Assembly (NCBI RefSeq): GCF_900110025.1
Contig: NZ_FOCE01000013.1
Span: 1-64,000 of the forward strand
Direction: 5' to 3'
Source: Gemmobacter aquatilis
GTDB taxonomy: Bacteria > Pseudomonadota > Alphaproteobacteria > Rhodobacterales > Rhodobacteraceae
Length of the DNA: 64,000 nt
Shown here: in pieces, positions 13,821-57,684 of the stretch
Layout: each line of letters starts with the position of its first letter
How positions within the stretch are numbered: position 1 is the first letter of the stretch
Program-made: the position numbers and the translations under genes
The notes under the pieces: model-generated
What the model saw: only the letters and a program-made list of their open reading frames with translations
Databases searched by the model: none
Told to the model about the DNA's origin: nothing

Positions 13821-13900
13821 TTCGGAATCTCCCCCTTCCCGCGCGGTCAAGCCCACCCGGTCATGGCTATATCCGCCGTCAGGACGGCGCTTTTCTCAAC

Positions 13901-35997: not shown

Positions 35998-36798
35998 TTA
36001 CTGGGGGCGCCCGGCCCCGGCGGGCAAGGCAAGGCGCAAGATCGCCAGATAGCCTACCGGGTCTTCGATACAAGGCAGATGCCCGACCCCGGGCAGGCAG
36101 GTCAGCACCGCCTGTGGAATCATACCCGCTGTGGCCTGCACCAGCGCCGGGGGCGTGGCCCCGTCTTCGGCACCGGCAATCAGGTGGACCGGCATCTGCA
36201 GTTCCCGGCAGCGCGCGGTCAGATCGGTAACCGACAGCGCATCGCAACAGCCCAGATAGCAGGTCAGATCGCAGCGCGACAGCATGGCCCGCCAGCCCGC
36301 CAGCGCCCCCGGATGTGCTGCCCGCCAGGCCGTGGAAAACCAGCGCTCCAGAACTGCATCCGCCATCAGGGCGATACCGCCCTGTTCTAGCGCCGCGATC
36401 CGGTCTTGCCACATCGCGACCGTGCCGATGCGTGCCGCAGTATTCGACAGCACCAGACGCCGCACCCGCCTAGGATGGTTCAGCGCCAATGACAGCGCAA
36501 TCTGCCCGCCGATCGACAGGCCCAACACATCGGCCGCCGCCACGTCATAACCGTCCAACACCGCCCGCGCATGGGCCTCCAGTGCTTCGATCCGGTAAGG
36601 GCGTGGCGCGGTTTCCGACAAGCCATGTCCCGGCTTGTCAAAACGGATCACCCGGAAATCCTGCGACAGACCGGGCATCACCGCATCCCACATCCGCAGA
36701 TCGGTTCCCAGCGAGTTGATCAGAAGCAGCGGCGGCGCTGTGGCCGGGCCATCCGCGCGGCTATGAAGCCAGATGCCGTTTGATCGGATCATGCGCAT
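35998..36798 (-). CDS. pcaD: Alpha/beta hydrolase, 3-oxoadipate enol-lactonase-like
   Basis: A 266-residue hydrolase, start MRMIRSNGIW behind AAAGGGGAC. Triad: nucleophile Ser in LGLSIGGQIAL, Asp near HLIAGAEDGATPP and His in PGVGHLPCIEDP. LLLINSLGTDLRMWDAVMP at the oxyanion region and RFDKPGHGLSE match PcaD. It should open 3-oxoadipate enol-lactone, consistent with the cycloisomerase and dioxygenase nearby. It is divergent from the LysR gene and shares the palindromic operator at 36871-36894. Confidence 0.85.
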   Translation of the reverse strand: MRMIRSNGIWLHSRADGPATAPPLLLINSLGTDLRMWDAVMPGLSQDFRVIRFDKPGHGLSETAPRPYRIEALEAHARAVLDGYDVAAADVLGLSIGGQIALSLALNHPRRVRRLVLSNTAARIGTVAMWQDRIAALEQGGIALMADAVLERWFSTAWRAAHPGALAGWRAMLSRCDLTCYLGCCDALSVTDLTARCRELQMPVHLIAGAEDGATPPALVQATAGMIPQAVLTCLPGVGHLPCIEDPVGYLAILRLALPAGAGRPQ

Positions 36799-36870
36799 GT
36801 CAGTCCCCTTTGCCGTGCTGCGGCACAAAACCGCGACACAGCCACGCTGGCAATGCACGCGGCCATGTGA

Positions 36871-36894
36871 TGCAATACCTGAAAGGTATCGCAG
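36871..36894. promoter_or_regulatory. LysR-type operator ATACCT-N3-AGGTAT
   Basis: ATACCTGAAAGGTAT (36875-36889) is a perfect inverted repeat in the 142-bp divergent region between pcaD-like and LysR genes. TGCAATACCTGAAAGGT recurs at 40728-40744 upstream of the dioxygenase, so one regulator probably controls both. Confidence 0.65.
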
Positions 36895-36940
36895 CCTGAT
36901 ATATCAGACCCGAAACAGTCGTTTCCGGGGAGGGAACGGG

Positions 36941-37833
36941 ATGGAGTTCAAGCGCCTGAAATACTTTCTGGCCGTCGCCGAAGAACTGCACCTCGGTCGC
37001 GCCGCCACCCGGCTGGACATGGCGCAGCCGCCGTTGTCGCGGCAGATCGCCGCGTTGGAGGCCGATCTCGGCGTGCAGCTTTTCGACCGCAGCCGCAGCC
37101 AGATTCGGCTGACGCAAGCCGGATTGGTGTTGCAGGATCACGCGCGGCAAATCCTGTCGCGTCTGGATGCCGCCTACCGCGAAACCCGGCTGGGGGGCAC
37201 CGGCGGCGGGGGGCGCTTGCGGATCGCTTTTGTCGGCTCGGCCTCGCACGGGGTGCTGCCGACGCTGATCAAGTCCTACCGTTCGTTCTACCCGAATGTG
37301 GAACTGGCGCTGTCGGCGATGAACAATGCCGAACTGTCGCACGCGCTGATTGCCCGCGACATTGACGTGGCGGTGGCCCGCCCCGCCCTGAACGATGACG
37401 AATTCCGCCGCGAATTGCTGTGCCGGGAAAAGCTGATCCTGGCCCTGCCCGATAATTCGCATCTGGCCAGCTGCCCGAGATCCGCTTTGCCGATCTGGCC
37501 GATCAGGAGTTTGTCCTTTACCCACGCCGACCCCGCCCCGGCTATGCCGATCTGGTGCTGGAGATTTGCGCGCGTGAAGGCTTCAAACCGGCCAAGCTGG
37601 AACTGACGCAGGATTTTCAAAGCGCGATCTCGCTGGTGTCGGTGGGCGTGGGCCTGTCGGTGGTGCCGGAATCGGTGTCCAGCACACAGCGGCCGGGCGT
37701 AGTTTACCGGCCCTATCTCGGCGACAATCCCGGCACGGCGCTGACCGTCCACGCCCGGCTGGACAATCGCGCGCCACAGGTGATGAACTTTCTGGAGATC
37801 ACCCGGAAATTCGCCCGCAAAGCCCCGACCTAG
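36941..37833 (+). pseudogene. LysR-type regulator (CatR/CbnR-like), frameshifted
   Basis: Starts MEFKRLKYFLAVAEELHLGR with a complete winged HTH (AATRLDMAQPPLSRQIAALE). The effector domain runs to about 37470 (LILALPDNSHLA), then the frame changes. LPEIRFADLADQEFVLYP continues in another frame to a TAG at 37831. The total length of 893 bp is one short of a 297-residue LysR, so a single base is missing near 37470-37476. It is either a recent pseudogene or a sequence error. The natural targets would be the ATACCT-N3-AGGTAT sites. Confidence 0.85.
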
Positions 37834-37842
37834 GCCTTTGGG

Positions 37843-38456
37843 CTAGGTCGGGCGCGGATCGTCGCGGAAGGTCGTGGCCTGCACCGAGGGCCGCGCGGTG
37901 AACGCCGCGTGCCTCGCCGCCAGACGCGGGCGACCACTGCGCCATACCTCTGCCTCAAAGCGGAAATCCAGATAGCACAGCGCGACACCGATGCTCAGAT
38001 GCCCGATGTCGAAGGCGCGTGCTTCTATCGCGGGCACATGGCGCTCCAGCCAGTCGGCCACGCGGTTCATCTTGGTGCGATAGACCGCGATCATGTCCTC
38101 CGACCGCAGCGCAGCGGGCCGCAACCGCGCCTCGACCAGCCAGGGCAGGGCCACATCTAACAGGCCGGTGCCCAAAGCCTCGTCCCGCTCGGAAGCCAGA
38201 TCTTCGGGGAACAGGCAGGGCCGGCCCGATCGGCCCAGCGGCAGATCACATGGCTGTCGAACAGCACGCTGCCATCTTCCAGCTCCAGCGTCGGGATCTT
38301 GGACAGCGGGTTCAGCGCCATCAACCCAGGATGGGGGATCAGCGGATCGGCATGAGTGCGGACAGTTTCGACCTGCCCGGCCAGGCCCTTTTCATGCAGG
38401 GCGACCATTACCTTGCGCACATAGGGCGAGCGAGGCGACCAATGCAGCAGCGGCAT
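37843..38456 (-). pseudogene. Glutathione S-transferase family protein, frameshifted
   Basis: N-terminal thioredoxin-fold part starts MPLLHWSPRSPYVRKVMVAL and includes NPLSKIPTLELEDGSVLFDS. Just after SHVICRWAD the frame shifts near 38215; LFPEDLASERDEALGTGLLD continues in the second frame through the helical C-domain. The 614-bp span is one base short of a 204-residue GST. Maleylacetate or chlorocatechol pathway clusters often carry such a GST. The frameshift may be real or a sequencing slip in a GC-rich run. Confidence 0.8.
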
Positions 38457-38458
38457 GT

Positions 38459-39634
38459 TCACCCCTTCCGTGCCAGCGACCGCAGCGCGGCCTCGTTGAT
38501 CGTCACCCCAAGGCCGGGGCCGGGCGGGCAATGGATGTGGAAATCCTTAAAGGTCACCTCGCCATTGGTCAGATCGGTTTTCACGATGCGCGGCCCGAAA
38601 TGTTCACAGCCCCATTCCAGACGCGGCAGGGTGGAAAACACCGCCAGATGCGCGGCGGCCCCCAGCCCGGTTTCCAGCAGGCAACCGCCATACAGCTCCA
38701 TCCCGCAGGCCGAGGCAATCGCGGCGGCGCGCTTGAGCTCCATCAACCCGCCGCTTTTCACCAGTTTGAGCGAATAGACCGACCCTGCCGCCGCCATCGC
38801 CTGCGCCACGATCTCGGGGCCGGTAAAGGCCGCCTCGTCGGTCATGATGGGAATGGGGCTGCGGGCGGCCACCCGGGCAGTTGCTGCGACAAGGCCGGGC
38901 AGCAGCGGCTGTTCGATCAGCACTACGCCCAATTCGGCAAGCTGCGGCAAGTAACGGATGGCGGTCGCCTCCGACCAGCCCTGATTGACATCACAGACAA
39001 TGTCGCACCCCGGCAGGGCCGCCACGATGAGGGCAAGGCGCGCCATGTCGTCGGCGGGGCTGTGAAAGCCCAGCTTGATCTTGAACCGGCGATGCTCGCG
39101 GGCGGCCAGCTTGGCCCGCGCCTCCTCGATCTCCTGATCGGCATCGCCAGAGGCCAGCGCCCAAAGCACTTCGATCCTGTCGCGCAGCGCGCCGCCCAGA
39201 AACTGGCTGGCTGGCAGGCCCAGCGATTTGCCCGCCGCGTCGAACAGCGCGGCATCCACCCCGGCACGGGCGGCATTGTTACGGCTGGCCGCCTTCTGCA
39301 TCGCCAACTGGTTCGCCTCGAACGACAGAACCGACCGGCCCAGCACAGCAGGCGCCAGATAGGTGTCGATGTTGGCCTTGATCGCCTCGACGCTTTCCTC
39401 TGCCCAACGCGGCCCGCCGAGAGTAGCGGCCTCGCCATAGCCCACGGTGCCATCCGCCAAAGCGGCTTTGACGATAACGTAGGACTGGACGGTGATCTCG
39501 GTATTCGACAGGCGGTGCCGCCGCGTGGTGGGCACGTCCACAATGACCGTTTCCACGGCGACAACCTCGCGCCCTCGGGCAAACTCGCCCACGGCGATCA
39601 GAGAGCTTAGGGCGGCAATACCCGGCTTGTTCAT
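38459..39634 (-). CDS. Muconate/chloromuconate cycloisomerase (enolase superfamily)
   Basis: A 391-residue enolase-superfamily enzyme. Catalytic KxK reads FKIKLGF, metal ligands are Asp in CDVNQGW, Glu in LIEQPLL and Asp in MTDEAAF, and the second base Lys is in SLKLVKSGG. The IEQP and TDEA spacing fits muconate lactonising enzymes. It converts cis,cis-muconate to muconolactone. It lies between the dioxygenase and the GST, 2 bp before the latter. A muconolactone isomerase (CatC) is not present. Confidence 0.9.
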   Translation of the reverse strand: MNKPGIAALSSLIAVGEFARGREVVAVETVIVDVPTTRRHRLSNTEITVQSYVIVKAALADGTVGYGEAATLGGPRWAEESVEAIKANIDTYLAPAVLGRSVLSFEANQLAMQKAASRNNAARAGVDAALFDAAGKSLGLPASQFLGGALRDRIEVLWALASGDADQEIEEARAKLAAREHRRFKIKLGFHSPADDMARLALIVAALPGCDIVCDVNQGWSEATAIRYLPQLAELGVVLIEQPLLPGLVAATARVAARSPIPIMTDEAAFTGPEIVAQAMAAAGSVYSLKLVKSGGLMELKRAAAIASACGMELYGGCLLETGLGAAAHLAVFSTLPRLEWGCEHFGPRIVKTDLTNGEVTFKDFHIHCPPGPGLGVTINEAALRSLARKG

Positions 39635-39727
39635 GTGGTTGGTCCTTCAAACGCGGCCGGAACAGGCCCACCAGTCAAATATGCGCGCCGCGCGTTCCGG
39701 GTCAGGAGGCGCGGCGCAAGCTTGGCC

Positions 39728-40600
39728 TTACTCGGCCGCCATGCGCGCAGCGTCCGCCCGGGGCAGAGCAAAGTCAAAGCGCAGTGTCAGATCAGTATCG
39801 GCCCCCGCTGGCGTCTTCTTGAACTCTCCGATCAGATCCGCCTTCACCGCAAAAACCGAGTCATTGTCCAGATGTGCGCTTTCCGAGTCGTAGATTTGCG
39901 AGATCAGCGGGCGATAGCCGTCATGCGACACCATCACATGAATATGGCCCGGGCGCATGCAGTGATGCCCCATGAAGCGGATCAACTCACCCGCGGTTTC
40001 ATCGCCGGGGATCGGATAGGGCACCGGGCGAATGGCGCGGAAGGCATAGTGACCGTCCGCGTCGCTTTCAAAGCGGCCACGCAGGTTGTAATCGGGCTGG
40101 TCGGGATCGTGGTTTTCATAAAGGCCGTTCGGCGCATCTTCCCACACGTCGATGATCGCCCCCGCAATTGGGTTGCCCTCGGTGTCGCGGATATAGCCCT
40201 CGACCAGCACGCTTTCCTGCGTGTCGAACGCCTTTTGCACGGTTGAGGCGCCCTTGGGCATCACCGGCGCGTTTTCGCGGAAGAACGGGCCCAGCACAGT
40301 CGAAATGGTCTCGCCGCCGGTGATCGGGTTCGACAGCATGTCTACCAGCACCTCGACGCCCAGAATGTCGCCCAGCAGGATGAATTCCTGCCGCTTGTCC
40401 GAGCAGATCGCCCCGGCGCGGCCCAGATAGTCGCAGGCGGCCAGAAACTCGGCATGGGTCAGGTTCACGTCCTTGCAGAAACCGTGCAGGTGGCGCAGCA
40501 GCGCCTCCATGATTTCACGCTGACGCGGCGTGATCGGCCCACTTTTGCCAAGAGATGAAATCACAACGTCGGTCACGTTGTCGATGGTCACATTACGCAT
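39728..40600 (-). CDS. Intradiol ring-cleavage dioxygenase (catechol/hydroxyquinol 1,2-dioxygenase)
   Basis: A 290-residue non-haem Fe(III) enzyme, start MRNVTIDNV behind GGAGGAGGAAAAC. An N-terminal helical dimerisation part (1-100) is followed by the beta-sandwich. Iron ligands: Tyr in GLYENHD, Tyr in DYNLRGRF, and two His in HCMRPGHIHVMVSHDGY. Length and EFILLGDILGVEVLVDML resemble hydroxyquinol 1,2-dioxygenases, while the neighbouring cycloisomerase argues for catechol as substrate. Regulation is probably by the LysR site at 40731-40745. Confidence 0.88.
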   Translation of the reverse strand: MRNVTIDNVTDVVISSLGKSGPITPRQREIMEALLRHLHGFCKDVNLTHAEFLAACDYLGRAGAICSDKRQEFILLGDILGVEVLVDMLSNPITGGETISTVLGPFFRENAPVMPKGASTVQKAFDTQESVLVEGYIRDTEGNPIAGAIIDVWEDAPNGLYENHDPDQPDYNLRGRFESDADGHYAFRAIRPVPYPIPGDETAGELIRFMGHHCMRPGHIHVMVSHDGYRPLISQIYDSESAHLDNDSVFAVKADLIGEFKKTPAGADTDLTLRFDFALPRADAARMAAE

Positions 40601-40699
40601 GTTTTCCTCCTCCTCCACGGTCGTGGCTGGATGCGGTCCGGCCACGGCCTTGTCTTTCCTGCGCAAGACCTTGCACTGGCACCGAGCGCCGCGCCAGCC

Positions 40700-40721
40700 G
40701 GGCGGGCGGGCGGGCGGGCGG
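40700..40721 (+). repeat. Five GGG tracts with single-C loops (G-quadruplex candidate)
   Basis: GGG runs at 40700, 40704, 40708, 40712 and 40716, then GG at 40720, each one C apart. It lies between the LysR operator and the dioxygenase start, on the template strand for that gene. Confidence 0.5.
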
Positions 40722-40730
40722 TATATTGCA

Positions 40731-40745
40731 ATACCTGAAAGGTTT
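40731..40745 (-). promoter_or_regulatory. LysR-type operator upstream of the dioxygenase
   Basis: ATACCTGAAAGGTTT matches the perfect palindrome at 36875-36889 in 13 of 15 positions, with the flank TGCA also kept. It is 131 bp before the dioxygenase start. Confidence 0.6.
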
Positions 40746-40831
40746 GTCAGGAGCCGATCCGATACCGTTTGCGCATAGCCTTGCGATGGTGCAACGGACC
40801 ACAGACGCACCCGTTTGCAGCCCGCCCGAGA

Positions 40832-40953: not shown

Positions 40954-41449
40954 GGCTTTGTTGCGCAAATGCGATGACGCGCCCATATTGCCCGACATGC
41001 TGGATCAGATCGCAGACGGCCAGTGCATAGGCATAGTCACCGCAGATGGAGCCTACGACACACGCGCCTGCCACGCCGCCATCGCCGCACGCGGGGCCGC
41101 CGCCGTCATCCCGCCCCGCAAGAACGGCAAGCCATGGAAGGAACTTACGGCGGGGGCGGCCCTGCGCAACGATGCCATTCGCAGTTGCCGCCGCCTTGGC
41201 TGGGCCATCTGGAAGCGCTGGACCGGCTACCATCGACGAAGCTTGCTCGAGGCCAAGGTGCGCTGCTTCAAACTCCTCGGCGAGCGCGTCATGTCCCGCC
41301 ACTTCGACAGGCAGGTCGCCGAGCTTCAGATCAGGGCCGCAATCCTGAACCGCTTCACAGCCCTCGGAACGCCGCTCATGCAGCGCGCAGGATAAGTCTG
41401 TCCAGGGAAAGGGGTCATCCGGCCTTCAGGAGATTTGCGCAACAAAGCC
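40954..41449 (+). mobile_element. IS5-family element remnant (internally deleted)
   Basis: Perfect 17-bp terminal inverted repeats, GGCTTTGTTGCGCAAAT (40954-40970) and ATTTGCGCAACAAAGCC (41433-41449), bound a 496-bp element. The inside holds only the C-terminal half of an IS5-type DDE transposase; a complete element would be about 800-900 bp. No target duplication is seen (left CTA, right GGA), fitting a later deletion or recombination event that also removed the tautomerase 5' end. Confidence 0.85.
40985..41395 (+). pseudogene. IS5-family transposase, C-terminal fragment
   Basis: About 136 residues: GIVTADGAYDTRACHAAIAA holds the second catalytic Asp; VIPPRKNGKPW and the helix with RRLGWAIWKRWTGYHRRSLLE hold the Glu region; RFTALGTPLMQRAG is the end. 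The N-terminal DNA-binding part and first catalytic Asp are missing, so it cannot transpose itself. Confidence 0.85.
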
Positions 41450-41774
41450 GGACAATGGGCTACATCCCTTGGTTCTTGCTGATTGCCTTGACCTTCTGGA
41501 GTAGATTTCCGAGAAATCAGGCCGCATCTATGCCCGAACCAAAGGGCCATGCGAGCGCCCGCGCCGGGGTCGCGGCGAAAGGGGGCGGCACACGCGCCAC
41601 AACTGTCTCACCCTACGCGGAATGAGACGGTTTTGCCCGAAAGCCTGCCCCGGCGCATCGCGTTCATTCCGCACCATCACGCAAAACGGCAGAACGGCGC
41701 CAGGGTTCGCCGCAGGCGGGACGCCGCGTCGTTTCACAGGCGACCGGCGCTGCGGCAAGAGGAGGAGGATTTCC
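41450..41774. other. Intergenic: IS flank, operator, leader of the AhpD-like gene
   Basis: The first 60 bp read, on the minus strand, NLLQKVKAISKNQGM before a stop, possibly the tail of another broken gene. An operator follows at 41604-41629 and then 145 bp of leader before the AhpD-like gene. No other feature was recognised. Confidence 0.35.
41604..41629 (+). promoter_or_regulatory. Operator YGTCTYA-N12-TGAGACR
   Basis: TGTCTCA and TGAGACG separated by 12 bp, 146 bp before the AhpD-like gene. The same spacing occurs at 50942-50967 before the E1 operon, and at 17577-17602. It is the probable binding site of the AcoR-like regulator at 43136. Confidence 0.6.
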
Positions 41775-42116
41775 ATGAGCGAGACTTACGGCGCAGCAGT
41801 CGCCGCCGTTGATCAACGGCTGGCCGCATTGTTCAAGGCGGCACCGGGAACAATGAAACCCTATAGCCAGCTGGTCGGCGCGGCGTCAGCCGACGCGGCG
41901 CTGTCTGGCAAGGTCAAGGAACTGATGGCTCTGTCGATCTCGATTGCGATCCGCTGCGAGGATTGCATCCTGTTTCACCTGCGCGCCGCGCTGCGCCATG
42001 GTGCGGCGCGCGAGGAGGTGATCGAGACGATCTCGGTCGCGATCGAGATGGGCGGCGGGCCCTCGGTCGTCTATGGCGGCAGGGCGCTTGCGGCGCTGGA
42101 GGCGCTGTCAGCATGA
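41775..42116 (+). CDS. Carboxymuconolactone decarboxylase-like / AhpD-type CxxC protein
   Basis: A 113-residue CMD-fold protein, start [11 protein letters not shown] behind GGAGGAGG. It carries the exact AhpD redox signature E-x11-C-x2-C-x3-H (Glu of VKELM, then CEDCILFH), so it is more likely a disulphide reductase/peroxidase-type AhpD than a true muconolactone decarboxylase. Mycobacterial AhpD is reduced by a lipoylated E2 subunit. Here the gene overlaps lipA by ATGA and is coregulated with a lipoyl-domain gene, so electron transfer from dihydrolipoyl groups is a plausible job (inference). Confidence 0.85.
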
Positions 42117-43087
42117 CCACGCCTCTGCCCCCCGTTCTGCGGCATCCCGAAAAGGCACATCGGCCGTCAACGCCCGGTCTGCCCAAGCCCAACTGGATCC
42201 GCGTGCGCGCGCGTTCCGGCAACGGGTTCGACCGGACACAGGCCATTGTCCGCGAAGCTGGTCTGACCACCGTCTGTCAGGAGGCGAGCTGCCCCAATAT
42301 CGGCGAATGCTGGGAACAGGGCCATGCGACCATGATGATCATGGGCGACACCTGCACGCGCGGCTGTGCCTTCTGCAATGTGGCCACAGGTCGCCCCAAG
42401 GCGCTGGACCCGTTCGAGCCGGGCCGCGTGGGCAAGGCGGTCGCCAGTCTTGGGCTGCGGCATGTGGTCATCACCTCGGTTGACCGTGACGATCTGGAAG
42501 ACGGCGGCGCGGCGCATTTCGTCCAGACGATCCGGGCCATCCGCCATATGACCCCCACAACGACGGTCGAGATCCTGACGCCGGATTTCCTGAAATGCGA
42601 CCCGGCGGCGATTGACCGCGTCGTGGATGCAGGCCCCGATGTCTTCAACCACAACCTTGAAACCGTCCCCGGCCTGTATCCGCAGGTCCGGCCCGGTGCG
42701 CGCTATTACCACTCGCTGCGCGTGCTGGACCGGGTCCGTCAGCGCGCGCCGTCGATTTTTACCAAATCAGGGCTGATGGTCGGTCTGGGCGAGGATCGTC
42801 TGGCCGTCCATCAGGTGATGGACGACCTACGGGCCGCCGGCGTCGACTTTCTGACCATCGGGCAATACCTGCAACCCACCCCCAAACACCACCCGGTCGC
42901 CCGCTATGTGACACCCGAGGAATTCGCCGCCTACAGGGCTGTCGCCCTGGGCAAGGGGTTCCTGATGGTGTCGGCCTCTCCGCTCACTCGGTCGAGCTAT
43001 CATGCCGATGCCGATTTCCAGCAACTGCGCGCGGCACGGTCTGCGACCAACATCCGGCTTGGTCGGCAAGGAGATTGCGCGCAATAA
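42113..43087 (+). CDS. lipA: Lipoyl synthase LipA
   Basis: A 324-residue radical-SAM enzyme that inserts two sulphurs into protein-bound octanoyl groups. Both clusters are intact: the auxiliary one in [12 protein letters not shown] and the radical-SAM one in [10 protein letters not shown]. The C-terminal [10 protein letters not shown] holds the conserved Ser-Ser ligand region (RSSYH). It overlaps the AhpD-like gene by 4 bp. Given its place in an inducible operon it is probably a second, dedicated LipA serving the E2 lipoyl domain encoded at 48514. Confidence 0.96.
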
Positions 43088-43135
43088 TCCTGGGGCTTGC
43101 CGGGCCTTCTGATATGGCAATGGGAGGAGAATGAC

Positions 43136-44872
43136 ATGGTTGCCTCGGTTCAGAAGGCAGCGTTGCGCGAACTGCTTGACCTGTCCAAGGCGCGTTCGAC
43201 GCAGAAGCACCGGCTTGCGGTCAGCACGCGCTCGCCGATCCTGCGCCTGCAGAACACCGAGATTTCACAGCGACGCGAGCAGTTCCAGTATCTGATCGGC
43301 GGCGCCGCGTCAGAACTGGATCGCTCGGCTCTGCTGCCCAGCAAGAGCCGCTATTGCCTGCTGGTTTCTGATGCGGAGGGCGTGGTGCTGGAAAGCTATG
43401 CGCCCGAAGGTCTGGAGGTCGAGTTTCAGCGTTGCGGGCTGATGGCGGGCGGCATCTGGAACGAGAAACTGGCCGGGACGAATGGCATCAGCATCGCGCT
43501 GGAGGCCGGTCGTGTGGTGACCGTCTCAGGCGAGGATCACTTCTATCACTGCTTTTCCCGTTTCGCCTGCACCTCGTCGCCACTGTCCGATGCACAGAAC
43601 AACCTCATCGGTTCTGTCACGCTGGTCGGCGCGGCCGGTCGGCGGCATGACGAGATCAGCCTATGCGAGCAATCGTTGCACCGAGCCTCGCGCCAGTTCC
43701 AGACCCGGCTGTTTCGCAACTTCCATTCCGACAAGATGACAGCGCGTCTGATGTCGCGCGACGCGATGACCCGGCGCTGTTTCGAGACAATGGTGGCCTG
43801 CGATGACCGGGGCGTCGTGGTGTTCAACCTGCCGCTCTGGCAGGACGACGCACGCCCCGACCTGCATCAGAATCTGGTCGGGCGGCACCTTTCCGACCTG
43901 CACGATTTCGAGATCAGCCTGCGCGGCCCGGCCCGCGTGCCGCCGCGGCGCTATTACGTCAATCCCGGCACACCGTCTCTGCCTGCGCGGCTGGACAGAA
44001 CCGGCCCGCTGGCAGGTTTTGCCGATCAGGGTGCGGCGATGCGCAAATTGGTCGAGACTGCCCGCAAGCTGGCGGCCTATCGCGTGCCGCTGTTGATCTG
44101 CGGCGCACCCGGCGGCGACAGCCGCGATTTCGCGCAAGCGATCATCGCGGATCTGGGGCTGATCAGCCCGACAGGCGTAACGTTGGATGCGTACAGCCCC
44201 AATGCCTCCGAAGCCCTGGCACAGGCGCTCGACGCCATGAGGTTTCTGGGCGACTACCCGGTCGAGCGGGTCTCGCCGACACTGGTGCTGCAGAATATCG
44301 AACATCTGGACGGACCGGCCCAGATCAGGCTGAAGCAGTTCCTCGAAGCCGAGGACCGGGCCAATGGCGACCGCTATAACGAGGACAGGGCGCTGGTCCT
44401 GTTCACCTCGGACCAGCCCTGGGCACAACTGCGGTCCGGCAGTTCCCTGCAACCCGACCTGCTGTGCCTCATCGGCCAATCGGTGCTGAACCTGCCCCCC
44501 TTGCGGCAGCGCGAGGTCGAGAGGCTGGTCACCGCCCATCTCGCGCGGGATCGCGCCGACCCGCCCACGGTTTCGGCGCAGGCGATGGCGCTTCTGTGCG
44601 CATATGACTGGCCGGGCAACCAGCTAGAGATGCGTGCCGTCCTGCGCGAGGCGCTGATCTGCGGCAATGGCACGACGATCAATGTGATCGACCTGCCCGA
44701 CCGCATCCAGAACCGCCCGGCCACACCCAAGCGCGACTATGTCCGCTATTCCCTGCGCGACGCGCTGAACAGTGCTGACTGGAACGTCACCAAGGCGGCC
44801 CGTCTGCTGGGGATCAGCCGCGCGACGATCAATCGCTGGATCGCTTCCGAAGGATTGCAACGCCCCGAATGA
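43136..44872 (+). CDS. AcoR-like regulator with non-functional ATPase motifs (paralogue 3)
   Basis: A 578-residue regulator, start MVASVQKAAL behind GGGAGGAG. GAF domain with AGTNGISIALEAGRVVTVSG, PAS-like middle, AAA+-like region, then Fis-type HTH NVTKAARLLGISRATINRWI. Walker A reads GAPGGDSRDF without the Lys-Thr/Ser, Walker B reads LVLQNIEHL without acidic residues, and there is no GAFTGA loop. ATP hydrolysis is therefore unlikely. The recognition helix differs from paralogues 1 and 2, matching the different operator spacing (N12 versus N8). It probably controls the E1/lipoyl and AhpD-lipA units. Confidence 0.83.
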   Translation: MVASVQKAALRELLDLSKARSTQKHRLAVSTRSPILRLQNTEISQRREQFQYLIGGAASELDRSALLPSKSRYCLLVSDAEGVVLESYAPEGLEVEFQRCGLMAGGIWNEKLAGTNGISIALEAGRVVTVSGEDHFYHCFSRFACTSSPLSDAQNNLIGSVTLVGAAGRRHDEISLCEQSLHRASRQFQTRLFRNFHSDKMTARLMSRDAMTRRCFETMVACDDRGVVVFNLPLWQDDARPDLHQNLVGRHLSDLHDFEISLRGPARVPPRRYYVNPGTPSLPARLDRTGPLAGFADQGAAMRKLVETARKLAAYRVPLLICGAPGGDSRDFAQAIIADLGLISPTGVTLDAYSPNASEALAQALDAMRFLGDYPVERVSPTLVLQNIEHLDGPAQIRLKQFLEAEDRANGDRYNEDRALVLFTSDQPWAQLRSGSSLQPDLLCLIGQSVLNLPPLRQREVERLVTAHLARDRADPPTVSAQAMALLCAYDWPGNQLEMRAVLREALICGNGTTINVIDLPDRIQNRPATPKRDYVRYSLRDALNSADWNVTKAARLLGISRATINRWIASEGLQRPE

Positions 44873-44917
44873 AAACGGCCAGGCACAGGGCCCGGCCGCA
44901 TCCCGATCTCGCCCGCC

Positions 44918-46495
44918 TCAGATGGTGCGGGCGTTCATCTCCTGCGCGATATATTCGGCCTGACGAATGGCCAGCGCCACGATCGTCAGGGTCGGGTTGC
45001 AGGCGCCCGACGAGGTGAACTGGCTGCCATCCGAGACAAAGAGGTTGCCGATATCGTGCGACTGGCCAAAGCCATTCACGACCCCCTTGGCGGGATCGGC
45101 ATGCATCCGGTTGGTGCCCATATTGTGCGTGGCGGGATAGGCCGGCAGTTCGTAAACATCCGTCGCGCCTACGGCTTCGTAGATCTGCGTCGATGTCTTG
45201 AACATGTGTTCGGTCATCTCGTAGTCGTTGTTATGCGGCGTCTTCGACACGATGGGCACCGGAAGACCGTGCTGATCCTTTTCGGTGCCATGCAGGGTGA
45301 TGGCATTGCGCTCTTGCGCCATATCCTCGCCCAGCACCCAGACCCCCGACATGTGGTCATAGGATTCCAGCGCCTTCGCGACACCGCGCCCCCAACCTGT
45401 GTTGCCGGGTTCGAGGAACGCCGCCATGAACGGCAAGCCCAACGACAAGAACTCGAGGTAGTAGCCGCCACTGAACCCGCGCGCGGGGTCGTGATACACC
45501 TCGTCGCCGACAATCCCCGCAACCGACGTGCCGCGGAACATATGCACCTTTTCCGGCAGAACGGCATAAACCCCGCCGGTGGTGTGGTTCATGTAATTCC
45601 GGCCCACCTGCCCCGAGCTGTTCGCCAGCCCGTCGGGGAACATCGACGAGGCCGAGTTCAGCAAAAGCCGCGGGCTTTCGATGGAATTGCCTGCCACGCA
45701 GACCACCCGCGCCTTTTGCAGATGCTGCTTGCCCGCGGCATCGGCGTAAAGCACGCCGCTCGCCCGGCCATTTGCGTCATGTTCGATGCGCAGCGCCATG
45801 GAATCGGTCCGCACCTCGCACAGGCCGGTATCCTCGGCGCGGGGCAGTTCGGTGTACATGGTGGACCATTTCGCGCCGATGGCGCAGCCCTGCATGCAGA
45901 ACCCGATCTGCTGGCACGAGGGACGGCCATCGCGTTCGACCGAGTTGATCGCCATCGGGCCAGAATTGTAGTCGCTGCGCCCGGTGCGGCGGCAGCCTTC
46001 GGCCAGAACGCGGAAGCCATTGTTCCAGGGCAGGTGCGGCATGCCGGTGGTCTTGCCGGTCACCCCCATCTTCAGTTCGGCCTTTTCATACCAAGGGGTC
46101 ATTTCCTCCAGCGAAACCGGCCAGTCCTCGACATTGGCGCCGTCGATGGCGCCGTAGTGGGTGCGCGTCTTGAATTCGTAGTCCTTGAATCGCAGGGCAA
46201 CCCCCGCCCAGTGGATGGTCGAGCCGCCATAGCCCTTGACGATCCATGCGGGCAGGGTCGGATGGTTCACCGCCCCATGCCAGCCACCGCCCGAATAGCG
46301 CTTGTCGAGCCACGAGATCTTGTTGAACATCGCCCATTCGTCATTCTCGATGTCGCCAAGATCAAACCGCCGGCCGGCCTCCAGCACGACCGATTTGATA
46401 CCCTTCTGGGCCAGCTCGTTCGCAAGGGTGCCGCCCCCTGCGCCAGAGCCAATGATGACGACGACGGAATCGTCGCTGAGATCGAATTTTGCCAT
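44918..46495 (-). CDS. GMC family oxidoreductase (second copy)
   Basis: A 525-residue paralogue of the enzyme at 8613, with VVIIGSGAGGGTLANELAQK, CQQIGFCMQGCAIGAKWS and PATHNMGTNRMHADPAKG. The three Cys are conserved in spacing between the two copies. FSGGYYLEFLSLGLPFMAAF is also shared. No signal peptide; export is expected with the Tat subunit encoded 12 bp upstream. It is last in the leftward E1 operon, so it probably oxidises an alcohol precursor of the 2-oxo or acetoin-type substrate (inference). Confidence 0.88.
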   Translation of the reverse strand: MAKFDLSDDSVVVIIGSGAGGGTLANELAQKGIKSVVLEAGRRFDLGDIENDEWAMFNKISWLDKRYSGGGWHGAVNHPTLPAWIVKGYGGSTIHWAGVALRFKDYEFKTRTHYGAIDGANVEDWPVSLEEMTPWYEKAELKMGVTGKTTGMPHLPWNNGFRVLAEGCRRTGRSDYNSGPMAINSVERDGRPSCQQIGFCMQGCAIGAKWSTMYTELPRAEDTGLCEVRTDSMALRIEHDANGRASGVLYADAAGKQHLQKARVVCVAGNSIESPRLLLNSASSMFPDGLANSSGQVGRNYMNHTTGGVYAVLPEKVHMFRGTSVAGIVGDEVYHDPARGFSGGYYLEFLSLGLPFMAAFLEPGNTGWGRGVAKALESYDHMSGVWVLGEDMAQERNAITLHGTEKDQHGLPVPIVSKTPHNNDYEMTEHMFKTSTQIYEAVGATDVYELPAYPATHNMGTNRMHADPAKGVVNGFGQSHDIGNLFVSDGSQFTSSGACNPTLTIVALAIRQAEYIAQEMNARTI

Positions 46496-46507
46496 GATGT
46501 CTGTTCC

Positions 46508-47101
46508 TTAGCCCTGAACCGCTGCCATGCGCTCTTCGAGGCTCGGCCCCTGGGGAACGAAGGTGATGTCTGAAAAACCGCGGTCGATGTAACCGCCATG
46601 TTCGACCGAAGAGCCCTCGTAGCCGAACAGCGGCCAGACATCCTTGTTGTCATAGATGCCGAAATAGGCCGTCCAGCGCACGGTCTGGAAAAAGCCCTCG
46701 TTCTGGAAATGGCGCAGCAGGCCCTCGCGGGTGTCGGGGTCCGTAATGTCGGTATAGGCGGTGCCGAACAGCGCCTGCGCCTGCTCTTCGATCTTGCCCA
46801 GCCCATCGGTCAGCGCCTTGGCGGCTTCGGCATCGGCTTCGGCATTTTTCAGAACGGTCGCCGCAATCGCCTCGTAATGCGAAAGCTGCAGCAGGTCCGG
46901 GTGGGGGTAGATGTCCTGCAGCATCCGCAGCAGCGTACCCTGCTGGGCCGCGGTCAGCACGCCCGAGGCGGCGAAGGCCCTGCCCCCCAGCATGGCGCCA
47001 GTGGTGATCCCGGCCATGGTCGTGGTCATGAGGAACATGCGTCGGCTCATGCCGGCATGTGTCTCCTTTTTCGGCCGCAGCCTGTGAAACTGTATGGTCA
47101 T
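46508..47101 (-). CDS. Gluconate 2-dehydrogenase subunit 3 family protein, Tat-exported
   Basis: A 197-residue small subunit. The Tat signal reads KKETHAGMSRRMFLMTTTMA and ends near GRAFAAS (residue 45). Start 47101 has GGGAGGACGAC; a start at 47050 would begin directly at MSRRMF. The body (MLQDIYPHPDLLQLSHYEAI, EGLLRHFQNEGFFQTVRW, GGYIDRGFSDITFVP) matches the copy at 8076 but is longer. It should escort the GMC subunit across the membrane. Confidence 0.85.
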   Translation of the reverse strand: MTIQFHRLRPKKETHAGMSRRMFLMTTTMAGITTGAMLGGRAFAASGVLTAAQQGTLLRMLQDIYPHPDLLQLSHYEAIAATVLKNAEADAEAAKALTDGLGKIEEQAQALFGTAYTDITDPDTREGLLRHFQNEGFFQTVRWTAYFGIYDNKDVWPLFGYEGSSVEHGGYIDRGFSDITFVPQGPSLEERMAAVQG

Positions 47102-47132
47102 GTCGTCCTCCCTTGCTGGTTTCTTGCGGCGG

Positions 47133-47831
47133 TCATGCCGCCTTGTGGCCCCGTGTGGTCAGGCTGGTCAGGCGGTCCTCCGCCGCCCGGGCCAGCGCAC
47201 CGGGGAAACTGTGTGGATTGGCCCGTGCGCCCATCAGGTCGGTCAGGGCGATATGGGCCCCGGCCTGCAACCCGGCGCTGTCGGGGAAGGCTGCGCGGTG
47301 CAGCCGGTCCATGATCGGCCAGAGCGCGGGGGCAGGCGGGGTCATCAGCAGCGCGGCATGGATCAGCGCCACCGGCCCCCCTGCCCCGCTGTGCCAGCGC
47401 TGCGCTGTGCCCGCGAGCTTGCGGCCCTGCGCCAGCACGTTCCATTTACCGTCGCAGAAGGCATTCTCGCAGGCGCCTGTGGTGGTCGGGATGTCGAACC
47501 GTGCCAGCGCCTCTGCCAGAGCGCCGCAGATCAGGTGATAGCCATCCTCAAGCCGGAACCCCGGCTGCAGCGGCACCACCAGCGCCAGATTTAGCGTGCA
47601 AGGCCCCTGCGGCACGATCCCGCCACCGCTGCGCCGGTCCACAACGGGCCAACCCGCCCGGTCCGCCTGCGCGACGCCGTCCTGCACCGCCGGGCGGCGG
47701 CGCAGGGCGGCGGGCACCACCAGTGCGGGGGCCGCGCTATGCCATAGCAGAATGGCCGGGCGCCCCTGCTGCAACAGCGCCATTTCCCGGGCGATCCCGT
47801 CAGAGGCCGTTCCGAAGGCTGCGACGATCAT
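47133..47831 (-). CDS. Lipoate-protein ligase A-like protein
   Basis: A 232-residue BPL/LplA/LipB-fold protein with the lipoyl-binding VDRRSGGGIVPQGPCTLNLA segment and the catalytic Lys candidate in GRKLAGTAQRW. It is shorter than E. coli LplA, lacking the accessory domain, like LplJ or octanoyltransferases LipM. It lies between the E2 catalytic gene (4-bp overlap) and the GMC pair. It probably loads lipoate or octanoate onto the stand-alone lipoyl domain; LipA at 42113 would then complete octanoyl to lipoyl. Confidence 0.85.
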   Translation of the reverse strand: MIVAAFGTASDGIAREMALLQQGRPAILLWHSAAPALVVPAALRRRPAVQDGVAQADRAGWPVVDRRSGGGIVPQGPCTLNLALVVPLQPGFRLEDGYHLICGALAEALARFDIPTTTGACENAFCDGKWNVLAQGRKLAGTAQRWHSGAGGPVALIHAALLMTPPAPALWPIMDRLHRAAFPDSAGLQAGAHIALTDLMGARANPHSFPGALARAAEDRLTSLTTRGHKAA

Positions 47832-48517
47832 GGCGCAAAGCTCTCGACCGTCTGGCAGAGATCCGTCAGGAAATCCGCCGCGGGGGCGCCGTCAATGGCA
47901 CGGTGGTCGAAGGTCAGCGACAGACCCGCATAGGGACGCCAGACCAGTCCGCCCTCCTCGCAGACAGCGGTTTCCACCACCCGACCGATCCCCAGGATAC
48001 CGATCTGCGGCGTGTTCAGGATCGGCGTGAACTGCTCCACCCGCGTCAGGCCCAGATTGGACACGGTGAAGGTGCCGCCGGTCATCTCGGCCACGCTCAG
48101 CTTGTTGATCCTGGCCCGTTCCGCAAGATCGCGGCGCGCGGCGCGCAGGTCCGGCAGGGTCATCCTGTCGGCGCCAAAGATCGCGGGCGCAGCCAGCAGG
48201 TTTCCGGGCAGGGCAATCGCCACGCCCAGATCCACAGATTTCGACAGGGTGATCGTGCGGTCCTTCACCGTGCCATTGATGTCGGGATGGCGGCCCAGCG
48301 TCTGCACCACCGCCCCGATCAGCAGGTCCTCGACCGACAGCGACAGACCCTCGTCCCGGAACCGCGCCTTGGCGGCCAGAAGCGCGGTCATGTCGGCGCG
48401 GGCGTGGTGGGTCAACTGTGCCGCGCCCTGCAGCGAGGCCAGCATCTTGTCCGCGATCATCGCCCGCACCCCGCGCAGCGGCACCACGCGGTCGGCGGTA
48501 TCGCCCGTGCCGGTCAT
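47828..48517 (-). CDS. 2-oxoacid dehydrogenase E2 acyltransferase, catalytic domain only
   Basis: A 229-residue CAT-fold acyltransferase. It begins VVPLRGVRAMIADKMLASLQ, has GTFTVSNLGLTRVEQFTPIL and the active site SLTFDHRAIDGAPAADFL (His and Asp intact). There is no lipoyl domain and no peripheral-subunit-binding domain, unlike the usual 400-550-residue E2. The lipoyl domain is encoded by the preceding gene (4-bp overlap). It should move the acetyl or acyl group from the lipoyl arm to CoA. Confidence 0.92.
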   Translation of the reverse strand: MTGTGDTADRVVPLRGVRAMIADKMLASLQGAAQLTHHARADMTALLAAKARFRDEGLSLSVEDLLIGAVVQTLGRHPDINGTVKDRTITLSKSVDLGVAIALPGNLLAAPAIFGADRMTLPDLRAARRDLAERARINKLSVAEMTGGTFTVSNLGLTRVEQFTPILNTPQIGILGIGRVVETAVCEEGGLVWRPYAGLSLTFDHRAIDGAPAADFLTDLCQTVESFAP

Positions 48518-48747
48518 GTGATCGACCCGATCACGTCGCCCTTGGCGACGACGGCATCCTGCTCCTTGAGGATCGACAGCTTGCCGCTGGCCGGGGCGCA
48601 GATCTCGTGCTGCACCTTCGCGGTCATGATCTCGGCAATCAGGGCGCCTTCCCTGACCTGCGCGCCGTCATCGGCCAGCCAGGCGGTGATGACGCTTTCC
48701 TCGTCGCCTTCCCAAAGGTCCGACGGGATGATGATTTCGGTTGCCAT
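48514..48747 (-). CDS. Stand-alone lipoyl domain protein
   Basis: A 77-residue biotinyl/lipoyl domain, start MATEIIIPSDLWEGDEESVI. The lipoylated Lys lies in IAEIMTAKVQHEICAP (about residue 44), in place of the usual ETDKA context; the second half repeat GKLSILKEQDAVVAKGDVIG is intact. Being a free domain, it acts as a diffusing carrier between E1, the separate E2 and an unknown oxidant. It has its own site and overlaps the E2 gene by 4 bp. Confidence 0.92.
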   Translation of the reverse strand: MATEIIIPSDLWEGDEESVITAWLADDGAQVREGALIAEIMTAKVQHEICAPASGKLSILKEQDAVVAKGDVIGSIT

Positions 48748-48818
48748 GTGACAATATCCTTCCTTGGCCACTCCGACATCATCCGGAGTGGCGCTGTTGT
48801 GACTGGAATCTGGGGGGA

Positions 48819-49844
48819 TCAGGCCGGGATGACGGCCCCGCAAAGCTCGCGCGCGGCTGCAACGATCTTGTCCGCATTGGGCAGGCAGTATTGCTCCATC
48901 ACGCGGGCAAAGGGGATCGGCACATCCGGGTAGGCGATGCGCCGGGGCGGCGCCTTCAGATCGGCCAGGTTGGTTTCGGTAACGGTGGCGATGATTTCGC
49001 CCGAGACGCCGAAGCTGTGGTAATCCTCGTCAACGACGATCAGCCGCCCGGTCTTGGCCACACTGGCGCGGATGGTGTCGCGGTCCAGCGGCACCAGCGA
49101 GCGCAGGTCCACCACCTCGGCGCTGATGCCCTGATCCTGCAGGATCCTGGCGGCCTTCAGCCCGTGATGCACCCCCTGCGCAATCGAAACGATGGTCACA
49201 TCGCGCCCCTCGCGGGCAATCCTGGCCTTGCCGATCTCGACCTCATAGGGTTCTTCGGGCACATGGACGATGGCGCCTTTTTCCGTACCCAGCCAGCCCA
49301 TGCCCTGAAGGCCCTTGTGATACATGTAGATCACCGGGTTCGGATCGCGGATCGCCGCCGTCATCAACCCCTTGGCGTCATAGGCGTTTGACGGGCTGAC
49401 CACCTTCATCCCCGGCAGGTGGGCAAAGCTGCCATAAAGGCATTGCGAATGCTGGCCCGCATCCGAATAGCCGCCCCCGGTCGAGGTCATCAGCACCATC
49501 GGCACATTGAACTTGCCACCGGAGAAATAAGTGTTCTTGGCCATCAGGTTATAGATCGCGTCGAAACACACGCCGAAGAAATCGACGAACATCAGTTCGA
49601 CCACAGGGCGCATCCCGTCCTGCGCCGCGCCAACGGCGGCACCGATGAAGCCGGTTTCCGAAATCGGCGTGTCGCGCACGCGCTCCTTGCCGAATTCCTC
49701 GGCCAGACCACGGGTATTGCCGAAGACGCCGCCCAGATCGGCAATATCCTCGCCCATCACGAAGACGCGGGGGTCAATCCGCATTTCCTGTGCGGTGGCC
49801 TCGGCCATGGCACGGGCAATTGTCAGTTTACGTTCGTTGTCCAT
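48819..49844 (-). CDS. acoB: Thiamine-diphosphate dehydrogenase E1 beta subunit (AcoB-like)
   Basis: A 341-residue transketolase-fold beta subunit: VFVMGEDIADLGGVFGNTRG, SETGFIGAAVGAAQDGMRPV and VVDLRSLVPLDRDTI are typical. Length and motifs fit acetoin dehydrogenase or pyruvate dehydrogenase E1 beta. Together with the alpha subunit 21 bp upstream it makes the heterotetramer that transfers an acyl group to the lipoyl arm. The AcoR-type regulator nearby favours an acetoin-like substrate over pyruvate. Confidence 0.92.
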   Translation of the reverse strand: MDNERKLTIARAMAEATAQEMRIDPRVFVMGEDIADLGGVFGNTRGLAEEFGKERVRDTPISETGFIGAAVGAAQDGMRPVVELMFVDFFGVCFDAIYNLMAKNTYFSGGKFNVPMVLMTSTGGGYSDAGQHSQCLYGSFAHLPGMKVVSPSNAYDAKGLMTAAIRDPNPVIYMYHKGLQGMGWLGTEKGAIVHVPEEPYEVEIGKARIAREGRDVTIVSIAQGVHHGLKAARILQDQGISAEVVDLRSLVPLDRDTIRASVAKTGRLIVVDEDYHSFGVSGEIIATVTETNLADLKAPPRRIAYPDVPIPFARVMEQYCLPNADKIVAAARELCGAVIPA

Positions 49845-49865
49845 CTGTTTTCCTCCCTCTCGCGC

Positions 49866-50852
49866 TCAGGCAAACACGGCTGTCAGTGCGTCTTCCGGTT
49901 TCGGATCCGGGCTCTGGCGGGCAAAGGCGATGGCCTCTTCGATCTCGGCGCGGGCCTTGTCTTCGATTTCATCCAGTTCCGCCTCGGTGAAGCCGTGATC
50001 GCTGACCAATAGCCGGCGCAGGTTGGGGATCGGGTCCTTGGCGAACAGCGCATCCTTTTCGCCATCGGGGCGGTAGCCTTCGGCATCGCCCATGAAATGC
50101 CCGGCAAGGCGGTAGGTCTCGACCTCGATCAGGGTCGGGCCTTCGCCCCTGCGCGCGCGCGCGATGGCCTCGCCCGCGACTTCGTAGATCTTCAGCGGAT
50201 CGTTGCCGGGGATGTAATGCCCCGGAATGCCATAGGCGGCGGCGCGGTCGGCGTTGCATTGGATCGCGGTCGAGGCCTCCTTGGCGACGGAAATGCCCCA
50301 GGCATTGTCCTCGACCACCACGATCATCGGCAGTTTCCACACCGCGGCGAGGTTCAGTGTCTCGTGGAACGCGCCCTGATTGGCCGCACCTTCCCCGATG
50401 AAGGACACCGCCACACCCGGCTTGCCCTGAAGCTTGCGCGACAGGGCTGCGCCCGCAGCCGGACCCATGCCCTGCGCGATGATGCCCGAACAGGCAAAGT
50501 TCACCTCGGCATCAAAGATATGCATATGGCCACCGCGACCACCGGACAGGCCCGTGGCCTTGCCGAAGATCTCTGCCGCCATCTTCTTCAGATCCACGCC
50601 CTTGGCGATGGCCTGATGATGCGGGCGGTGCGTCGCCGTGACGATATCATCGGGCGTGAGGTGGGCGCAGACGCCCACGGCGACCGGCTCCTGCCCGTTG
50701 GAGAGATGCATCTCGCCGGGGATCGGCCCGTTCGCCATGTTGAAGACGGGGGTCTTTCCCTCCATGTAGATCTTTTCGATCAGCTCTTCGAAATGACGGC
50801 TGGCGACCATTTTTTCATACATCCAGCCCAATGTGTTCCGCGATGGTGTCAT
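49866..50852 (-). CDS. acoA: Thiamine-diphosphate dehydrogenase E1 alpha subunit (AcoA-like)
   Basis: A 328-residue E1 alpha, start MTPSRNTLGWMYEKMVASRH behind GGGAGGAAAAC; the 15-residue upstream extension is unlikely. The ThDP motif is GEGAANQGAFHETLNLAAVW in which GDG is replaced by GEG, as in many acetoin-type enzymes, closing with DNAWGISV. GGRGGHMHIFD is the phosphate region. First gene of the leftward operon; an operator lies 90-115 bp upstream. Confidence 0.92.
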   Translation of the reverse strand: MTPSRNTLGWMYEKMVASRHFEELIEKIYMEGKTPVFNMANGPIPGEMHLSNGQEPVAVGVCAHLTPDDIVTATHRPHHQAIAKGVDLKKMAAEIFGKATGLSGGRGGHMHIFDAEVNFACSGIIAQGMGPAAGAALSRKLQGKPGVAVSFIGEGAANQGAFHETLNLAAVWKLPMIVVVEDNAWGISVAKEASTAIQCNADRAAAYGIPGHYIPGNDPLKIYEVAGEAIARARRGEGPTLIEVETYRLAGHFMGDAEGYRPDGEKDALFAKDPIPNLRRLLVSDHGFTEAELDEIEDKARAEIEEAIAFARQSPDPKPEDALTAVFA

Positions 50853-50941: not shown

Positions 50942-50967
50942 TGTCTTAACTTCGAGGAAATGAGACA
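50942..50967 (-). promoter_or_regulatory. Operator YGTCTYA-N12-TGAGACR of the E1 operon
   Basis: TGTCTTA (50942-50948) and TGAGACA (50961-50967), separated by 12 bp, preceded by AAC as in the other sites. It is 90 bp ahead of the E1 alpha start. A further GAGACA half-site occurs at 50993-50998. Confidence 0.6.
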
Positions 50968-57681: not shown

Positions 57682-57684
57682 GCC

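Follow-up and report, generated by a model that had tools for sequence, protein, structure and literature searches.

Dihydrolipoamide dehydrogenase (E3, or Lpd) is regarded as the oxidant on which all lipoyl complexes rely. The AhpD proteins of Mycobacterium tuberculosis and Corynebacterium, which belong to the carboxymuconolactone decarboxylase (CMD)/AhpD superfamily and carry the motif E-x11-C-x2-C-x3-H, are associated with a lipoyl E2 and coupled to SucB, Lpd and NADH: known AhpDs swap electrons with lipoylated E2 and with Lpd and feed peroxidases, in the direction NADH-Lpd-E2-AhpD-peroxidase, according to PMC8945050 and PMC10460364. Taken singly, none of the components is new: free lipoyl carriers, complexes of the acetoin type and AhpDs linked to lipoyl proteins have all been described. 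Here we describe a locus of the alphaproteobacterium Gemmobacter aquatilis, contained in a 64-kb stretch of DNA (hereafter the window), in which a free lipoyl carrier, a free E2 catalytic domain and an AhpD-like protein are encoded in two convergent units.

The locus resembles acetoin dehydrogenase (AcoA, AcoB, AcoC, AcoL) in its E1 alpha and beta subunits, which match those of the acetoin-type operon L288 at 42-46%, in its AcoR-type regulator and in its lipoylation genes. It differs in that its E2 consists of two free proteins and no AcoL is encoded, and in that the E2 catalytic part is of the 2-oxoacid_dh type, whereas that of L288 is of the alpha/beta-hydrolase type. The housekeeping E3 serves the glycine cleavage H protein in trans. 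Both the H protein and LbpA of the sHdr system are, like the carrier in the window, stand-alone lipoyl proteins for which E3 is expected from a shared pool, as PMC6067878 suggests for bacterial LbpA; the carrier in the window, however, sits with E1 and an E2 acyltransferase that would make acyl-CoA.

Judging from sequence, we give slightly better than even odds (a probability of about 0.52) to a dedicated redox partnership between the AhpD-like protein and the lipoyl carrier in a catabolic, acetoin-dehydrogenase-like split-E2 system, with E3 acting in trans. The partnership is favoured because the split architecture is conserved, an operator-like site is shared by the two units, and the linkage of AhpD to E1-E2 genes is recurrent. 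In a literature search covering few subscription journals, we recognised neither a proposal of AhpD in place of E3 nor this combination of genes, the shared site or the recurrent position of ahpD.

A split E2 conserved among related loci

The window is part of an 84.8-kb contig of the 3.96-Mb genome. Its plus-strand unit runs ahpD-like gene, lipA and AcoR/DhaR-like regulator, and its minus-strand unit E1 alpha, E1 beta, lipoyl protein, E2, LipL-like transferase, Tat protein and GMC dehydrogenase (Table 1). An earlier note on this DNA, made from the letters alone, had reported that E1 alpha and beta, a 77-residue lipoyl domain and a 229-residue E2 without lipoyl or peripheral-subunit-binding domain are encoded together; coordinates and Pfam and NCBIfam matches agree with this. 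The E1 pair is of the thiamine diphosphate (ThDP)-dependent kind (PF00676, PF02779, PF02780). The E2 covers positions 4-227 of the 232 in the PF00198 profile, and no Pfam lipoyl or peripheral-subunit-binding domain matched it at E 0.001; carrier and catalytic part are two proteins, not one E2 polypeptide bearing both domains. The absence of dihydrolipoamide dehydrogenase from the locus, also reported there, holds for the entire 84.8-kb contig, on which no full-length E3 was found and the sole Pyr_redox_2 match (23853-24035) is partial.

Genome contigs were scanned with a free-E2 alignment; the best 80 loci of 115 relatives, with eight plasmid loci added, gave 88 loci, the neighbourhood gene content of which was mapped by BLAST. 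By record titles the sample spans Alphaproteobacteria, Gammaproteobacteria and one Acidovorax contig. Lipoyl and E2 matches lie in separate frames in 84 of the 88 loci, so the split arrangement is not a chance one. The lipoyl lysine K44 is invariant in eight aligned sequences and at least 97% conserved in 85, and H205 of the E2 is invariant in the free-E2 alignment and at least 97% conserved in 89. The 84 split loci carry E1 beta (82), the LipL-like gene (80), E1 alpha (79), the regulator (67), the Tat protein (39), GMC (38), lpd (12), ahpD (9) and lipA (7), the weak CMD matches of L086 being excluded from ahpD and E3 matches below 45% identity (one at 29% in L109) from lpd.

No split locus carries lpd and ahpD together, and 63 carry neither. 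A linked lpd, which the earlier note had named as telling against its idea, occurs in 12 of the 84 relatives and so counts partly against it, but none of these 12 has ahpD. The idea was that the AhpD-like protein could reoxidise the carrier in place of E3. Taken in full, AhpD would be the carrier's main oxidant, electrons would bypass NAD+ on their way to peroxide or another acceptor, and the exchange of lpd for ahpD would be a functional replacement. Such a replacement, which we consider unlikely, is favoured by the two genes never meeting in the 84 loci; nevertheless, this non-overlap of nine and 12 is within chance (1.3 expected, Fisher p 0.35), so that mutual exclusion in the cassettes is not significant, and the 63 loci with neither gene argue against it. 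The same 63 loci favour an alternative that we likewise find doubtful, in which E3 in trans does all the reoxidation and the AhpD-like protein works independently of the carrier, either as a lyase- or isomerase-type CMD protein acting on an intermediate or in oxidative-stress defence.

A shared operator-like site

The earlier note had asserted, without giving evidence, that the two units are coregulated. A palindrome, TGTCTCA-N12-TGAGACA, lies upstream of both, each copy agreeing at 13/14 positions. Its core, TGTCT-N15-GAGAC, has two exact matches in the 64 kb where 0.07 are expected, and one of 100 shuffles reaches two. In eight of the nine ahpD-bearing relatives the copy upstream of ahpD agrees at 14/14 positions and the copy upstream of E1 alpha at 13-14/14. 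The spacer is N13 at both places in L037 and L048 and N12 at both in the other six, and such equality within each locus is as expected for one regulator reading both sites. With spacers of 9-14 allowed and a threshold of 12/14, the site precedes E1 alpha in 44/78 loci, the regulator in 4/64, the Tat protein in 1/39 and lpd in 1/12, and was not found before E1 beta (82 loci), E2 (88), lpl (80), gmc (38) or lipA (7); the threshold is also attained in 36 of 3000 windows of 300 bp drawn at random, a few of which presumably overlap genuine sites. These observations support the coregulation of the two units through the shared site, to which the regulator would bind. The regulator has DhaR as its nearest NCBIfam model, at a score well under the cut-off, and lacks a GAFTGA motif; a simple scan detected no sigma-54 -24/-12 elements upstream of ahpD, E1 alpha or the regulator.

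The single lpd with a site is that of L059, in which a 14/14 copy stands before lpd-lipA-regulator, a mirror of the window's ahpD-lipA-regulator. This lpd scores above its curated cut-off and occupies the place of ahpD behind the same operator-like site, which we count for the partnership and which also favours AhpD having replaced E3. Further operator-like sites at 12/14 lie in the window at 13892 and 17577, possibly by chance, possibly marking other regulon members.

The AhpD-like protein and its relatives

As the earlier note had it, the AhpD-like gene encodes the exact motif (E49-x11-C61-x2-C64-x3-H68) in an AhpD fold and overlaps lipA, by 4 nt. The motif is present in every listed AhpD relative save L150, an interrupted copy; being near-universal among relatives it says little alone, and we gave it no weight. 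The ahpD subfamily goes with the cassette. All ten cassette copies form one clade (support 100/98) in a tree whose group labelled 'other' includes L141 and L152, later found to be E2-linked. Among 394 genomes of the family, AhpD matches above 70% identity occur in two, the window genome and G082, the next listed being at most 53% identical, and G082 has its cassette 5 kb from its ahpD on the same contig. Thirty-six records of a plasmid collection match AhpD, and the three that do so at 78% or more all carry a free E2.

The closest solved structures are 5dik, 7y4r (RclX) and 1vke/1p8c. In contrast to the M. tuberculosis and Corynebacterium AhpDs, from which the protein is remote in sequence, its gene is tied to an E1-E2 operon and an operator-like site. 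Identity as PcaC, the 4-carboxymuconolactone decarboxylase, was rejected at 22.7 bits against a curated cut-off of 155.7. This score, and the CxxC redox motif retained in 10/10 cassette copies, weigh against a role unrelated to the carrier, even though the CMD family includes true decarboxylases and ring-cleavage-like genes (by eye) lie nearby in the window. A CMD gene beside acetoin genes has also been recorded in PMC9676059, where it is considered a possible lyase and a redox role of the kind proposed here is not put forward.

Before the second Cys, the window protein has Asp63; at what we take to be the corresponding position, the M. tuberculosis protein carries H132, as numbered in a PDB title. 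Asp or Glu stood here in 29/33 lipoyl-linked and 10/79 unlinked AhpDs at a first count. When wider stretches were examined, L310, one of seven Asp-bearing cases scored as unlinked, turned out to be linked, against none of three controls with Gly; the counts became 30/34 and 9/78, kinship ignored. As a mark of lipoyl-linked AhpDs the residue is a weak lead, with kinship uncorrected and L183 and L184 carrying Gly.

AhpD-like genes beside other lipoyl complexes

Pyruvate dehydrogenase (PDH, pdh) loci were gathered with the pdhC of the ahpD-linked locus L202, a query that could favour ahpD-bearing relatives, and 40 of 70 family matches and 20 of 116 class matches (together L203-L262), mostly the best-scoring, were used. 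An ahpD-like gene comes first behind pdhC in five of the 40 family loci (L218, L228, L229, L231, L239), and no other CMD genes were found in the 9-13-kb stretches of the pdh loci. The chance of at least five in 40 is about 1e-8, if kinship and query origin are ignored and seven CMD matches, as in one genome, are spread over an assumed 3800 genes. The window's own genome is among the 40 and has no CMD there. In the 20 other alphaproteobacterial loci, lpd lies within 1.4 kb behind pdhC in 18 and CMD in none, whereas lpd follows pdhC in none of the 40 family loci, a contrast that again favours AhpD in place of E3. Further pdhC-linked ahpD loci were found via AhpD (L200, L202, L290, L291, L292). 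The copy behind pdhC in L229 (genome G006) has an in-frame stop; this copy (L229, L150) may be decaying or misassembled.

Acetoin-type E2s, with an alpha/beta-hydrolase domain, are followed by an ahpD-like gene in L288 (acoABC-ahpD-LipL-like) and L289, and the E2s of L288, L289 and L296 exceed the curated acetoin-dehydrogenase cut-off. In L310 a gap separates the two genes. The pairing recurs in eight plasmid regions, from Tritonibacter, Nitratireductor, Rhizobium (2), Shinella (2), Sinorhizobium and Roseateles, the annotated ones sharing a sugar-ABC/E1/E2/CMD/FGGY-kinase cluster. BLAST found no lpd within the stretches examined of the acetoin-type operons with CMD behind E2, which also speaks for AhpD standing in for E3. 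L293 (G1123), an acetoin-type operon without CMD, is a counter-example: among 160 genomes of another order, acetoin-type E2 occurs in two, G1058 with ahpD (the query source) and G1123 without. An ahpD-like gene also lies behind another E1-E2 in L309, a Methylovirgula plasmid. L183 and L184 likewise have one behind an E2, that of a 2-oxoacid complex. A by-eye label of this complex as branched-chain 2-oxoacid dehydrogenase (BCKDH) was dropped: the L183 proteins, those scored, reach the cut-off of no NCBIfam model, and we therefore call the complex unassigned. The plasmid regions were 16, picked by hand from the tops of two lists, so the ratio of nine E1-E2-linked to seven others is no estimate of frequency.

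The PDH-linked AhpD copies, including the PDH-linked L152, form a separate clade (99/96) far from the cassette clade, with unlinked copies between, which suggests that AhpD-like proteins were recruited to lipoyl complexes at least twice. Since the association extends to at least three kinds of E1-E2 system besides the cassette, the link would be to the common lipoyl group and not to one substrate, in disfavour of a carrier-unrelated role. A far broader claim, which we consider unlikely, would make CxxC AhpD-like proteins a further kind of dihydrolipoyl oxidant besides E3, and a widespread one. In this view they would have moved repeatedly into the place of lpd, whether in complexes for pyruvate, of the acetoin type, for other 2-oxoacids or with a split E2, so that the carrier would turn over without NAD+ and electrons pass to peroxide or a thiol pool.

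The plasmid clusters (L294-L298, L303-L305), from rhizobia and relatives, run sugar ABC transporter, E1 alpha/beta, acetoin-type E2, CMD and FGGY kinase, mostly followed by two short-chain dehydrogenases/reductases; they may encode a so far uncharacterised route by which a sugar or polyol is broken down with the help of a lipoyl complex. In L305, which carries no annotation, E1-E2-CMD was seen by BLAST, and in L298 the E2 is annotated as two pieces. In L301 (Salinivibrio) the AhpD-like gene adjoins gcvT of glycine cleavage, another lipoyl system.

Supply of E3 and the role of the AhpD-like protein

The locus has no dedicated E3, but E3-like genes lie elsewhere in the window genome, one on contig C14 and one on contig C25. 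At least two E3-like genes outside the locus were found in each of 20 genomes examined (12 with linked ahpD, eight without); in every genome one of them shares 67-100% identity with the C25 E3 and another 41-44%. A split carrier need not, therefore, lack E3, and together with the 63 cassettes that have neither gene this means that 'E3-less' fits the locus but not the whole cell. The idea that genomes with a linked AhpD have lost E3 altogether is refuted. The retention of E3-like genes in 20/20 genomes, 12 of them AhpD-linked, weighs against AhpD as the main oxidant, as does the waste that bulk flux to peroxide as terminal acceptor would entail. What remains of the earlier note's idea is the cassette-specific ahpD clade, the shared site and the recurrent E1-E2 linkage, which are consistent with a partnership of AhpD and carrier.

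Several observations tell against even this partnership. Seventy-five of the 84 cassettes are without ahpD, which is hence dispensable to the cassette type. L083 has ahpD and neither site at 12/14 or better, a shorter palindrome (TGTCTCA-N4-TGAGACA) preceding its ahpD. Among 82 short stretches around AhpD relatives, ten have an E1/E2 neighbour and 72 do not, so membership of the AhpD superfamily does not in general imply a tie to lipoyl complexes. The window protein also lacks recognisable sequence orthology to M. tuberculosis AhpD, no chain of which is among 13 sequence matches at E up to 1, and the fold match to it is at E 0.5 or worse. Finally, no peroxiredoxin gene was recognised in the cluster, although no search was aimed at one.

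Going by their families, E1 alpha/beta would form an acyl adduct on ThDP and load the acyl onto the lipoylated K44 of the free carrier, from which the free E2 domain would transfer it to CoA. If the partnership is genuine, the C61/C64 disulfide of AhpD would take electrons from the dihydrolipoyl K44 and pass them to peroxide, a peroxidase or another acceptor, while the housekeeping E3 would still serve the carrier in trans. The carrier would be lipoylated by the LipL-like transferase and the dedicated LipA; a second, unlinked lipA lies on contig C12. The substrate is likely an acetoin-like ketol or a 2-oxoacid, acetoin being suggested by the kinship of E1 and regulator. A periplasmic GMC dehydrogenase probably prepares it, the GMC/Tat pair oxidising an alcohol in the periplasm.

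A regulated, recurrent partner in the place of E3 would, if true, alter views on acyl-CoA flux, NADH yield and links to peroxide defence, and would account for those neighbours of E1-E2 operons that are annotated as 'carboxymuconolactone decarboxylase family'. In a weaker form, too, the system offers a small soluble set of three proteins (lipoyl protein, AhpD and E3) for direct measurement of electron transfer from lipoyl to AhpD.

The LipL-like transferase

According to PMC6067878, LipL takes octanoyl groups from GcvH and transfers them onto lipoyl domains. The window protein has the LplA/LipB fold (PF21948), and its C126 and K138 are each at least 97% conserved across 78 sequences. C126 aligns with a conserved Cys of the LipL amidotransferase BH3822 (2p5i), the catalytic residue of LipL, and the Lys region aligns as well. 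Unlike BH3822, the protein is shorter, is clustered with its presumed carrier and falls far below the cut-offs of two NCBIfam LipL-type models (38.6 and 37.6 bits against 400 and 450); its activity is putative.

Features of the locus and neighbouring genes

Table 1. Features of the split-E2 locus, by position in the window.
Feature	Position	Strand	Evidence
Palindromic operator-like site TGTCTCA-N12-TGAGACG, upstream of ahpD-lipA-regulator operon	41604..41629	+	13/14 positions
AhpD-like CMD protein, 113 aa, E49/C61/C64/H68	41775..42116	+	PF02627, 62.6 bits
lipA, lipoyl synthase	42113..43087	+	TIGR00510, 374 bits, above cut-off
AcoR/DhaR-like activator, 578 aa, without GAFTGA motif	43136..44872	+	NCBIfam, Pfam, motif scan
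GMC oxidoreductase related to fructose/glucose dehydrogenase large subunit	44918..46495	-	PF00732, PF05199; 7w2j, E 4.4e-45
Small Tat-signal (SRRMFLM) protein, probable GMC partner subunit	46508..47101	-	relative in L038 annotated as gluconate 2-dehydrogenase subunit 3 family
LipL-like lipoyl/octanoyl transferase, 232 aa, conserved C126 and K138	47133..47831	-	PF21948
Free E2 acyltransferase catalytic domain, 229 aa, D204-H205...D209-G210	47828..48517	-	PF00198, 209 bits
Free lipoyl carrier protein, 77 aa, lipoyl lysine K44 in MTAKV	48514..48747	-	PF00364, 40.8 bits
E1 beta	48819..49844	-	PF02779, PF02780
E1 alpha	49866..50852	-	PF00676, 244 bits
Second copy of operator-like palindrome, upstream of E1 alpha operon	50942..50967	-	13/14 positions

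The small Tat protein matched no Pfam or NCBIfam model and no PDB fold at E 0.001, its structural model being poor (predicted local distance difference test, pLDDT, 67); its residues R20 and R21 are at least 97% conserved across 40 sequences. Judged by eye, 35998-40810 and 56641-58866 of the window hold genes for aromatic ring cleavage and for a Rieske-type oxygenase and a reductase, which places the cassette in a catabolic neighbourhood. A transposase-like remnant (40958-41395, by eye) lies left of the ahpD operon, with an intradiol-dioxygenase-like gene (39728-40810) beyond it. A family resembling pyrroloquinoline quinone (PQQ)-type alcohol dehydrogenases (by eye) recurs near the cassettes L093, L097, L100, L102, L104 and L105, and a cytochrome-c-like gene is common to L097, L100, L102 and L105; these neighbours would fit an oxidation of alcohols ahead of the complex.

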